A stretch of DNA of 64,000 nucleotides. Source: Nitrospirota bacterium (GTDB lineage Bacteria > Nitrospirota > UBA9217). The notes beneath the pieces were generated by a model. The model saw nothing but the letters and a program-made list of their open reading frames with translations, had not been told where the DNA came from and did no database searches. The translations under genes were made by a program, and so were the position numbers. Positions within the stretch are counted from its first letter, which is position 1. Every line of letters begins with the position of its first letter. Shown piece by piece: positions 54,585 through 58,156 of the stretch. The DNA is taken from positions 152,047-216,046 of the forward strand of contig JAGVOT010000123.1 of NCBI GenBank assembly GCA_020052615.1. Direction: 5' to 3'.

Positions 54585-54899
54585 GTGAACAATTTCAATG
54601 CATCGGTCGTCAACGCAAATCACGAGCGGGTCATTGCGGTCGTGGACAAATTTCTGGAAGATCGCTACCGGAACGCTTGTACGTGCCCTCGCTGCATGTC
54701 GGATATTGTGGCCATTGCGTTGAATTACCTTCCGCCTCACTACATCGTCGAAACAGAAACAGGAAAGGAGTTCGGATCACCGTGGGTCATGGTCGAAACA
54801 GCCGTCGCTGAGGCCATTGACCGGGTCATGGAAAACCCGAACCATCCGCGGACAAAAGCCGGGTCGGTACAGCCTACGACCACCGCGCAAGAGCTCTAA
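54585..54899 (+). CDS. ComFB-domain protein
   Basis: A 104-residue protein starting with GTG at 54585, with GAGG about 8 bases upstream. The block RYRNACTCPRCMSDIVAIAL, closely followed by NYLPPHY, matches the ComFB family (PF10719), including the CxxC-type cysteines. ComFB-like proteins in cyanobacteria have been reported as c-di-GMP receptors. Whether this one binds nucleotides is unknown. It lies upstream of an NHL-repeat protein and a multihaem cytochrome, but a promoter in between suggests separate control. Confidence 0.8.
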   Translation: MNNFNASVVNANHERVIAVVDKFLEDRYRNACTCPRCMSDIVAIALNYLPPHYIVETETGKEFGSPWVMVETAVAEAIDRVMENPNHPRTKAGSVQPTTTAQEL

Positions 54900-54946: not shown

Positions 54947-55999
54947 ATGAAACTTCTCTCCCGGGGAATATACATACTGCTCATCGTCGGAGCAGTAACT
55001 GCGTCCGGCGCGGTGTTTCAGGCGGCTTTCGCCGCACCACCTGAAACTACCGTATCCTCTCCCTGGGTGTGGCCATTACCACCGGAACAACCTCGAGTCC
55101 AACACATCAAAACCGTCATCACGCCGCAGGACCTGGGGATAACAAAAGGTTTTTTTGCGAAATTATGGGAATTCATAGCCGGCGAGGATACCGCTGACCG
55201 CATCATTTCGCCCCACGGGGTCGTTGCGGACGATGGGGGGAAGGTATATGTCGCGGACTGGGGCGCCGGCCGTATTCACTATTTCGATTTTGAGAAGAAG
55301 AAATACGATGTCTTTTCGAAAACGAAGCTCGGGCCTCTCCAGTCGCCGATCGGAATCGCCCTGGATGGCGAGGGCCTTTTATATGTCACCGATTCCATTC
55401 TGAGGCGCGTTTTTGTGTTCAGCGGTACAAAGAACAAGCGCGTCATCGGAGATGACGCGCTCTTGCGCCCAACCGGGATCGCTGTCAACAAGAAGGAAAA
55501 AACACTATACGTGGTCGACACGATCGGGCATCGGGTCGATGTCTATGACCTGGACGGGAAGAAGAGGTTTTCCTTCGGATCGAACGGCTCCGACGAGGCG
55601 AAGTTCAATTATCCGACCCATGTCGCGATCGATGCTGCAGGCGATGTATATGTGGTTGATTCGCTGAACTTCCGGATTCAAATATTCAACAAAGAAGGGA
55701 AGTTCCTTTCCCGGTTCGGCGGTACCGGCACCAGCATCCATGATTTCATGAAACCGAAGGGGATTGCCGTTGACAGTGAGGGCCACATCTGGGTTTCCGA
55801 CAGTTTCCGAAACACTATCCAGGTATTTGACCGGCAAGGAAGACTGCTGCTGATCTTCGGCAAGGTCGGCATAGGTCCAGGGCAGTTCAATGTTCCCGAA
55901 GGGCTCTTCATCGACAGCAGGGACCGGCTTGTCGTCGCGGACAGCTACAATTACCGGATACAGCTGTTCCAGTATCTGAAAGAGCGCTCCAGGAACTAG
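54947..55999 (+). CDS. Exported NHL-repeat beta-propeller protein
   Basis: A 350-residue protein with a signal peptide (about residues 5-30, ending near AFA). The mature part contains six NHL-type repeats, e.g. PIGIALDGEGLLYVTDSILR, PTGIAVNKKEKTLYVVDT, PTHVAIDAAGDVYVVDSLNF, PKGIAVDSEGHIWVSDSF and PEGLFIDSRDRLVVADSYNY, which would close a six-bladed propeller. Proteins of this kind often sit beside extracytoplasmic multihaem cytochromes and may bind or scaffold them. It is followed 48 bases later by such a cytochrome. No enzyme motif is visible. Confidence 0.88.
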   Translation: MKLLSRGIYILLIVGAVTASGAVFQAAFAAPPETTVSSPWVWPLPPEQPRVQHIKTVITPQDLGITKGFFAKLWEFIAGEDTADRIISPHGVVADDGGKVYVADWGAGRIHYFDFEKKKYDVFSKTKLGPLQSPIGIALDGEGLLYVTDSILRRVFVFSGTKNKRVIGDDALLRPTGIAVNKKEKTLYVVDTIGHRVDVYDLDGKKRFSFGSNGSDEAKFNYPTHVAIDAAGDVYVVDSLNFRIQIFNKEGKFLSRFGGTGTSIHDFMKPKGIAVDSEGHIWVSDSFRNTIQVFDRQGRLLLIFGKVGIGPGQFNVPEGLFIDSRDRLVVADSYNYRIQLFQYLKERSRN

Positions 56000-56047
56000 G
56001 CCGGCAGGCGTTTCGTAGTTTTTATGGAATCATTCTTGAGGTGGACA

Positions 56048-58156
56048 ATGAATCGGATGAACATGTTTTTAGCGGCCGTCGCAGCCGTTACGCTGAGCGC
56101 TGCCGTGTCTTTCGCGGCAACAGTATCCATTGTAGATACCAAGCATAATCTTTCCTCCGGGGGAACAGGTTCCTACAAAGCGGCATCAAGTGATCCGACC
56201 CTCGGCGGAACCACGGAGATTTGCATTTTTTGCCACACCCCTCACAGCGGGAATACAGAAGCCCCTCTCTGGAACCGGGCGGCATCCGCTGCATCGTATC
56301 AGACCTATACCAGCGATGTGCTCGGCGGCCTCACTTACCCGGGCGCCGAAGATCCGGGCGGGGGGCCGGGTGTTGTCATGCATTCAAAGACCAGAATATG
56401 CCTGTCCTGCCACGACGGCACGATCGCGCTCGGATCGGTGGTGAATATGCCGAGCAATATCCCTGGCACGTTTTCCGAAATTCAGATGCAGGGCAGTTCT
56501 ATGATCCAGCAAAGCACTCCGGGATATATCGGCATTAATCTTGGTGACGACCACCCGGTGGCCATTCCGCATGACAACAGCAAGGATTCCGAGCTCGTTC
56601 CGGGAGCGTCTGTTGCCGGGAATGTAAGGCTTTACGGGAATACCGGCGGAAAAGCGGTCGTTAGCAAGGCCGATGGAAGTTATGTAGAGTGTACATCCTG
56701 TCACAATCCTCATGACAATCAATATGGCAAGTTCCTCATTGAAACGAATCAGAACTCCGCTCTCTGCCTGCGCTGCCATACGAAAACGAGTTTTTCTTCA
56801 AGCGTACATGCTGACAACACTATCAACGTTACCTATGAGCCGGCAACCGGAGGAACCGCACCAAATCCGACGAAACATGGTCCCAGGGTCGGTGATGTCA
56901 AATGCATGAACTGCCATTTTCCGCATAAGGCCGGCCTGGAGACGGGCTCGACCTCTCCAAATTCGAGCTATGGAAGATACCTGCTGTCTTATAGAGAGGA
57001 AAATGCATGCTTTGTAAATAGTCCAAGCGACAGGTGGGCGACATCCAACGCCTCCAGCGCCTGTCATGGAACGGGCGGTGCAAAGGATATCGAGACCGAC
57101 ATCAAGAGTTCATCAAAGCATCCTGTCGTTGACAGCGCAAATACCTCTCCGCGGCATAAAGCAACCGAGGCCCAGGGTGCCGGATGGTTCAATAATACAA
57201 CTGTGTGGCACACTGAGTGCGAGGATTGTCACAATCCTCATACCTCGGGAAAGACGGCGCATATCTCACCCGTAAACTCGCCTACGACATTTCCTCCTGC
57301 ACTTACCAATGCAAGCCCGATCTATGGGGTCGGTGGGGTAAATGTGAATTTTCCCGGTAATTGGATAGTACCCAACCCGGCCACAGCCTATACCTACGTC
57401 AAGCCCATCGGTGTCACGGAAACTGCCAGTACAGGGGCGGACGCGGAATATAAGATATGCTTCAAATGCCATACTGCCTATGCGTGGTTCGGAGGTACTG
57501 TGCCGAATTCGTCCTCGCTCCTTGCTCCGATGACCGATCAGGCGCAGGAGTTCAATCCAAACAATATATCGTTCCATCCCGTGGTGCAGGGAAATACGGG
57601 CCATACAGCCGGCAGCACGGGGTTAACAGGGGGATGGACGAACGGCAATACACAGACCATGTTCTGTTCGGACTGCCATACCCGGAACGGAGGCGGCGTT
57701 CCCAAAGGGGCTCATGGATCATCTCAACCGTTCATTCTTACCGGAACGTTTGAGGACTCCTATGGAACGGTAGGGGGAACGCATCAGAGCACTTCCGGAT
57801 TGTGTTCGCAGTGCCACCTTGATAGTGTCTATTCTACACCGACATTAAGCGTTGCTGTACCAGCAACAGACACGGCTTTCCGAAATGGGAGCGGTCACAA
57901 TCTCCATAACCAGCACCGCTACAAGGCAGCAAATATTGCCAATAAACGTGCATATCGATGTGTCAATTGCCATGTTCGCATTCCCCATGGATGGCAGCGG
58001 GATGCGCTCATCGTCCAGCGAAATGATGGCGCACCCTATGAGGCCGGTGGTACGAATACCGGTTTGATCACTTCATGGAGCCAGCCGGGACCCTATACCA
58101 TTACCGGTTGCGGCAGCAGCCTGGCAACCAATGGGGTCACCGGTTGTCATCCATAA
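56048..58156 (+). CDS. Multihaem cytochrome c with ten CXXCH and two atypical CXnCH sites
   Basis: About 702 residues from the ATG at 56048; another ATG at 56024 is possible. After a signal peptide (about residues 6-24, ending SFAA), ten CXXCH haem sites are visible: CIFCH, CLSCH, CTSCH, CLRCH, CMNCH, CEDCH, CFKCH, CSDCH, CSQCH and CVNCH. Two more His-containing sites have long spacers: CX17CH (C321 to C339-H340) and CX11CH at the very C-terminus (C688 to C700-H701). Several follow the doubled-CXXCH (cytochrome c3-like) layout. It probably carries electrons in the periplasm or at the outer membrane. A terminator follows. Confidence 0.9.
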   Translation: MNRMNMFLAAVAAVTLSAAVSFAATVSIVDTKHNLSSGGTGSYKAASSDPTLGGTTEICIFCHTPHSGNTEAPLWNRAASAASYQTYTSDVLGGLTYPGAEDPGGGPGVVMHSKTRICLSCHDGTIALGSVVNMPSNIPGTFSEIQMQGSSMIQQSTPGYIGINLGDDHPVAIPHDNSKDSELVPGASVAGNVRLYGNTGGKAVVSKADGSYVECTSCHNPHDNQYGKFLIETNQNSALCLRCHTKTSFSSSVHADNTINVTYEPATGGTAPNPTKHGPRVGDVKCMNCHFPHKAGLETGSTSPNSSYGRYLLSYREENACFVNSPSDRWATSNASSACHGTGGAKDIETDIKSSSKHPVVDSANTSPRHKATEAQGAGWFNNTTVWHTECEDCHNPHTSGKTAHISPVNSPTTFPPALTNASPIYGVGGVNVNFPGNWIVPNPATAYTYVKPIGVTETASTGADAEYKICFKCHTAYAWFGGTVPNSSSLLAPMTDQAQEFNPNNISFHPVVQGNTGHTAGSTGLTGGWTNGNTQTMFCSDCHTRNGGGVPKGAHGSSQPFILTGTFEDSYGTVGGTHQSTSGLCSQCHLDSVYSTPTLSVAVPATDTAFRNGSGHNLHNQHRYKAANIANKRAYRCVNCHVRIPHGWQRDALIVQRNDGAPYEAGGTNTGLITSWSQPGPYTITGCGSSLATNGVTGCHP

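Follow-up and report, generated by a model that had tools for sequence, protein, structure and literature searches.

Two described systems bear on c-type haem sites in which the two cysteines are far apart. In OmcZ, an octahaem nanowire cytochrome of Geobacter, haem 1 sits at a CX14CH motif whose long loop has been seen by cryo-EM, as described in PMC9473688 and PMC11208441. The sulfite reductase MccA/SirA has a CX15CH site which needs a dedicated lyase. Two further papers report that in vitro CcsBA depends on both thiols and on the His and is exacting towards the CXXCH motif (PMC8112865), and that dedicated CcsBA enzymes are on record for CXXCK and CX15CH (PMC10663686). In the open-access PMC literature CX14CH and CX15CH do occur, and no occurrence of CX11CH, CX12CH, CX13CH, CX16CH or CX17CH was found.

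The window, i.e. the whole stretch of 64,000 nucleotides of Nitrospirota DNA that was analysed, encodes a large multihaem cytochrome with two sites of this kind (Table 1). A preliminary description had counted ten CXXCH motifs plus one CX17CH and one CX11CH, and translation bears this out: CXXCH is found at residues 59, 118, 215, 240, 286, 391, 471, 540, 586 and 638, and the non-standard sites are C321-x17-C339-H340 (site 6) and C688-x11-C700-H701 (site 12). The latter had been placed at the extreme C-terminus, and H701 is indeed one residue short of the end. The protein has 24 cysteines, all of which fall in the twelve pairs, and Pfam recognises doubled-CXXCH repeats (PF09699) in it. The longest open reading frame begins 24 bases upstream, giving an alternative start at 56024. 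No other CXXCH was found in the window among script-chosen, non-overlapping ORFs of at least 120 aa. The cytochrome looks secreted, judging from a signal peptide recognised by eye and from a helix at residues 3-21 in an AlphaFold2 model; this model, computed from nine sequences, has a mean pLDDT of 29.8 and reaches fair confidence only at these helical residues.

Table 1. Coordinates, in the window, of the cytochrome gene, its parts and its upstream neighbours.
Feature	Position	Strand	Basis
ComFB-like protein	54585..54899	+	PF10719, E 5.3e-15; homologues in L086, L083
NHL-repeat beta-propeller protein	54947..55999	+	PF01436, E 3.8e-38; upstream partner
Dodecahaem-type c cytochrome, 702 aa	56048..58156	+	translation; PF09699, E 9e-24
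Probable Sec signal peptide, ~residues 1-23	56048..56116	+	by eye; AlphaFold2 helix 3-21
OmcE-like tetrahaem domain, residues 11-246	56078..56785	+	phmmer vs 7tfs chain A, E 1.4e-26
Haem site 6 (predicted), C321-x17-C339-H340	57008..57067	+	translation, alignment
C-terminal domain: last two CXXCH, then terminal site	57800..58150	+	profile A2
Haem site 12 (predicted), C688-x11-C700-H701, extreme C-terminus	58109..58150	+	translation, alignment

A phmmer search of the PDB up to E=1 returned a sole match, the tetrahaem nanowire cytochrome OmcE of Geobacter (7tfs). Residues 11-246 align to residues 9-232 of its 232-residue chain, and all four CXXCH motifs as well as the KH, TPH and DHP histidines are shared. 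The window protein differs from OmcE by some 456 extra residues and eight more sites; with 702 aa and twelve Cys pairs, against the ~230 aa of a tetrahaem member of the OmcE family, it is not itself an OmcE but a protein with an OmcE-type domain. With OmcZ it shares a site type: sites 6 and 12, read from the sequence, each combine two cysteines, a long loop and a His right after the second Cys. However, OmcZ is absent from the PDB matches up to E=1, and the window protein has one long loop in the middle of the chain and the other at its C-terminal end. A long-spacer CXnCH site is likewise shared with MccA/SirA; the difference is that no dedicated lyase was found in the window's genome (see below), and the PDB search up to E=1, which was the only comparison made with MccA, returned no MccA/SirA chain.

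We aligned 53 sequences, window included. None of the 52 aligned homologues keeps the ten CXXCH while lacking the cysteines of the two long-spacer sites, L205 being a fragment without site 6 and L060 being cut before the C-terminal site and hence excluded from the site-12 table, which holds the 52 rows with a readable tail. At site 12, the His is absent from none of these 52 rows: it is adjacent to the second Cys in 36 of them, and displaced by 3 to 7 positions past it (C-Xn-C-Xm-H, m=2-6) in the other 16, which makes site 12 the less secure of the two long-spacer sites. The terminal site of the wide family is CX3CH. The C-terminal Cys pair is kept in all seven sequences formed by the window and its six close homologues. 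Six of these seven have a CXnCH (CX11CH in the window, CX5CH in four relatives, CX10CH in one) ending 0 to 4 residues after the His, the exception being L034, one of the displaced rows, with C-x14-C-x3-H.

A spacer that varies from 3 to 18, together with a His that has moved in nearly a third of the rows, makes site 12 the least constrained of all, and would suit a protein with eleven haems, in which site 6 binds haem and the C-terminal pair bears no ordinary haem, being a disulfide, a structural clamp or a place for some other ligand. We consider this unlikely, given the true CXnCH of the window and of five of its six close relatives at the very end of the chain. Moreover, in relatives the presence of an extra lyase pair tracks the shape of site 12 (see below), a pattern that makes more sense if this site has something attached to it.

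Site 6 is covered by 52 of the aligned sequences (51 rows tabulated by script, the 52nd, L060 with n=7, being taken from the alignment), and all 52 have a CXnCH, with n=2 in 30 and n=7-17 in 22. CX2CH is found in the wide family and in some others, n=7, 11 or 12 in other families of the phylum, and spacers of 13, 13, 13, 14, 16, 16 and 17 in the window's own family, the last being the window's. The loop consensus in this family is about CFN..RW....CHG. Constant Cys, Cys and His around a varying loop are what is expected for a haem site with an inserted loop. The spacers 2, 7, 11, 12, 13, 14, 16 and 17, found at one haem site of one family, constitute a natural series, with which one can test how far the Cys-Cys distance can be stretched before the general lyase fails.

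Long Cys-Cys spacers would also suit disulfides, and haem is deduced here from the sequence; a protein with ten haems, in which both extra Cys pairs are disulfides, has to be weighed for these reasons. It is nevertheless a distinctly improbable arrangement, as site 6 is a plain CXXCH in 30 sequences and retains its His in 52 of 52. Histidines outside CH motifs point the same way: 14 are conserved in the 19 full-length sequences, 13 of them in 19/19 and H169 in 18/19, the sequence letters of the exception being unreadable at that position. These 14 are enough for twelve bis-His haems and exceed the need of ten. The cytochrome thus likely holds twelve haems, two of them in stretched sites.

Homologues with CX2CH and CX3CH at sites 6 and 12 lead us to read both as haem sites whose Cys-Cys spacer would have been widened by an inserted loop, with the Cys, the Cys-His and the distal His retained. 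The loop would bulge outward, leaving both thioethers and the proximal His normal, as in the CX14CH of OmcZ. As to attachment, three CcsA-type genes are present in the window's genome (contigs C50, C70 and C83), and ResB is above cut-off at two loci, C50 and C83. The C50-type CcsA is found in 14 of 14 genomes of the family, including those lacking the cytochrome, and none of the three CcsA belongs to the cassette group described below (quick tree of 50 CcsA). A search for extra CcsA/CcsB-type lyases therefore leaves the genome with general System II only, which presumably serves CX17CH and CX11CH; OmcZ likewise is not known to have a dedicated lyase. The preliminary description had proposed twelve haems together with a special lyase: homologues support the twelve sites well, and the lyase finds no support in this genome. 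That a dedicated long-spacer lyase is nonetheless encoded here, on the precedent of MccA/SirA and with the second CcsA/ResB set of C83 as candidate, is very improbable, since C83-type CcsA occurs in 12 of 14 genomes of the family, half of these 12 being devoid of the cytochrome, and the genome has neither a cassette-group CcsA nor a BchE-like gene above 29% identity. We rejected this reading, the C50 and C83 sets being present, by their CcsA, in cytochrome-negative genomes of the family as well.

Overall, we think it probable that the protein is a twelve-haem cytochrome of extracellular electron transfer, with two stretched sites to which haem would be attached by the general System II lyases of the genome, without any dedicated one. 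It would be a secreted dodecahaem c-type member of such a system, in which, by sequence, an OmcE-type four-haem unit (residues 11-246) precedes eight further sites.

Relatives present a different situation at the C-terminal site. Of the 16 rows with a displaced His, all of them inspected, 13 have a CcsB(ResB)-CcsA pair downstream of their cytochrome (G013, L019, G103, G115, G071, G026, G298, G439, G316, G141, G334, G362 and G444, the CcsA match of the last being limited to its first part). Among the remaining displaced rows, the pair of G089 opens another contig, the cytochrome being near the end of its own, and G447 has a ResB fragment only. No lyase pair was found, in the stretch read, beside any of 15 long-type cytochromes with CXnCH (window, G001, G002, G009, G010, G011, G302, G429, G139, G449, G163, G448, G121, G246 and G229); the contig ends ~1.1 kb after the cytochrome in G010, ~0.1 kb after it in G011 and 3.3 kb after it in G163. 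Genome-wide, no CcsA of G010 or G011 exceeds 33% identity, over its length, with the G013 one. The switch is also seen within genera: G103 (displaced, pair) stands against G429 (CX6CH, no pair), and G316 (displaced, pair) against G139 and G449 (CX7CH, no pair).

On a maximum-likelihood tree of 52 rows, computed with both sites omitted and excluding the fragment L205, the displaced state corresponds to 7 changes. Among 6 independent pairs on starred branches, the lyase (G447 being excluded for this trait) follows the site in 5.8 on average, and never goes in the opposite direction (median p 0.031, range 0.031-0.0625). Rows without lyase examination were scored as lyase-negative in this first test; the result was unchanged with only the 29 examined long-type rows, with G089 dropped from these as well, and also when the 22 wide-family and f6 loci were omitted. 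In most of these 22 loci only 0.002-1.4 kb downstream is covered, so that lyase absence is weakly tested there. Three of them (L020, L024 and L026, all CX3CH) have a partial CcsA match after the gene, with 32-34% identity over 83-158 aa and no ResB match. An extra lyase tracking the site-6 spacer was also considered and rejected: the site-6 motif is CXXCH in L019, where a pair adjoins the gene, and CX17CH in the window, where none does. Site 6 has n=2 in six genomes with a lyase pair (L019, G316, G334, G362, G444 and G141), and genomes without a pair include n=7-17.

The C-terminal domain is common to the cytochrome and to other giant multihaem cytochromes. Profile A2, which represents this domain and ends before site 12, was searched against 395 genomes from the phylum; in the window, itself one of the 20 rows that built the profile, it matches 57800-58084 (E 3.3e-23), and site 12 comes after the match. 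The search gave 35 matches in 31 genomes, i.e. 34 genes, as the G362 gene is split over two contigs. Their terminal site is CXnCH in 12 and of another form in 22. A CcsB-CcsA pair was found in the same gene cluster for 21 of these 22 reshaped sites (the 22nd, G089, being the contig-edge case) versus 0 of the 12 CXnCH (Fisher p 2.4e-8, kinship ignored). This sample is not independent, as all but five of the 34 genes were already in the earlier survey and segments of this kind had gone into the profile.

Further pairs are found near giant cytochromes without terminal CXnCH, at ten loci (G368, G197, G169, G106, G372, two in G430, G446, G453 and G360), with CcsA 40-46% identical to that of G103; nine of the ten have the shared C-terminal domain, G360 being the exception. 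Three more such loci are known (G254, G362 on C58, and G004). Terminal motifs at these extra loci are mostly C-Xn-C-Xm-H, and a reversed motif, CH-Xn-C-G-stop, is found in G169, G106, G254 and G362 (C58) beside the same kind of pair. The reversed motif was noted at the cytochrome C-termini of L273, L274, L281 and L282. The genus-mate G004 (L322) has no full-length copy of the window's cytochrome; it carries a cytochrome with 15 CXXCH that terminates in NCGCNGSGH-stop and is accompanied by ResB, CcsA and a BchE-like gene. In L244 and L270/L320, two cytochromes flank a pair of CcsB-CcsA sets and a single BchE-like gene, and an open frame has as many as 37 CXXCH.

The order of the cassette is a CcsB-CcsA pair, often followed by a small protein, then a B12-binding radical-SAM enzyme. 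The pair was seen downstream of the cytochrome in L087, L088, L089, L090, L254, L284, L285 and L019, in most of which a small gene and/or a BchE-like gene lies beside the pair. ResB and Cytochrom_C_asm are above cut-offs in both pairs scanned (L087 and L088), and the WWD motif and a conserved His are present in six aligned CcsA, as in System II CcsB-CcsA. The pairs differ from it in that the CcsA found beside orthologues and other cytochromes form one starred group of 35 (quick tree of 50, SH-aLRT 99, no bootstrap), apart from the window genome's three CcsA and 11 others, and in that a BchE-like gene often follows. The best NCBIfam for the radical-SAM gene is the anaerobic cyclase BchE (TIGR02026), with 416.5 and 407.6 bits in the two proteins scanned, the next family scoring ~152; both are below the cut-off of 481.35 bits. 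B12-binding and radical-SAM domains are present in both, as in BchE, and CxxxCxxC in 19 of 19 sequences; unlike BchE, the gene sits in a cytochrome cluster. It is found in the same cluster for 18 of the 22 reshaped-site genes, with G089 included on account of the cassette at a contig edge.

A lyase dedicated to a displaced-His site fits the pattern of dedicated CcsBA for CXXCK and CX15CH, and the BchE-like gene suggests that the porphyrin itself may be altered. We propose tentatively, as a possible reading, that these relatives and other giant cytochromes carry a novel C-terminal covalent tetrapyrrole site (C-Xn-C-Xm-H with m=2-6, or CH-Xn-C), which would be served by a dedicated cassette, a CcsB-CcsA of the distinct group plus a BchE-like enzyme modifying the porphyrin before attachment, the site being CXnCH where the cassette is absent, as in the window. 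If true, these cytochromes would have one chemically altered terminal haem at the place where electrons enter or leave. Among titles and abstract beginnings in the open-access PMC literature, none ties a displaced-His motif to haem attachment, and the matches listed there for BchE concern, by title, phototrophs, tetrapyrrole biosynthesis or BchE itself; a cassette joining a dedicated lyase to a possible porphyrin-modifying enzyme would, if confirmed, be new. The paired cases within genera make the lyase specificity and the possible modified haem c directly testable.

Several observations weigh against this reading. BchE-like genes (at least 50% identity) are present in 13 of the 15 displaced-site genomes searched, G334 and G447 being the exceptions, but also in 6 of 18 genomes with a CXnCH dodecahaem protein, so that the link to the terminal site is not exclusive. 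Five of these six have the gene on other contigs (G001, G002, G010, G229 and G448), and the sixth, G246, on the same contig, 7.8 kb away and without a lyase pair. No BchE-like gene was found in the stretch read beside the pairs of G254, G334, G013 (C219), G362 (C39) and both G430 loci. In G453 no pair adjoins the displaced-site protein, the cassette being on another contig beside other cytochromes. Contrary to the pattern, G240 (L279:1458-5784) has a cassette-group pair ~1.6 kb after a cytochrome that ends in CX10CH and lacks the shared domain; its 5.8-kb contig has no BchE-like gene.

Full-length orthologues of the cytochrome were found in 7 of the 14 genomes of the window's family, window included, the order-level search spanning the same 14. 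Five genomes of the family have, immediately upstream of their cytochrome gene, an NHL homologue 66-77% identical to the window's. The cluster in relatives reads OmcE-like tetrahaem cytochrome, NHL protein, PPIase, barrel-like 560-aa protein, NHL protein, dodecahaem cytochrome, then the cassette if present; its gene content is incomplete in some genomes. The 560-aa protein has no Pfam match, and its look of an outer-membrane barrel was judged by eye. In the window's genome the NHL-dodecahaem pair is found here, and an OmcE-like cytochrome, an NHL protein, a SurA/PpiC-type PPIase and a barrel-like protein lie together on C112. The C112 set (L078:10119-15613) corresponds to the other half of the relatives' cluster; its 686-aa barrel-like protein has no Pfam match and no BLAST match to the 560-aa protein. 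From the neighbourhood in relatives, we infer a role as connector, in which the cytochrome would link an outer-membrane complex to an OmcE-like filament by electron transfer.

In the phylum sample, 46 of 395 genomes have a match at E 1e-30; many of these matches concern the OmcE-like part or a shorter, wide family. MAGs labelled Nitrospirota, Spirochaetes, Verrucomicrobia, Phycisphaerae and Myxococcales are among the named relatives. Relatives lacking the OmcE part (L245, L246, L241 and L243) come after two cytochrome genes, one with 26 CXXCH and the other with 15 or 16. Elsewhere in the window, between 673 and 16089, a run of ORFs resembles, by first residues, a polysaccharide synthesis cluster.
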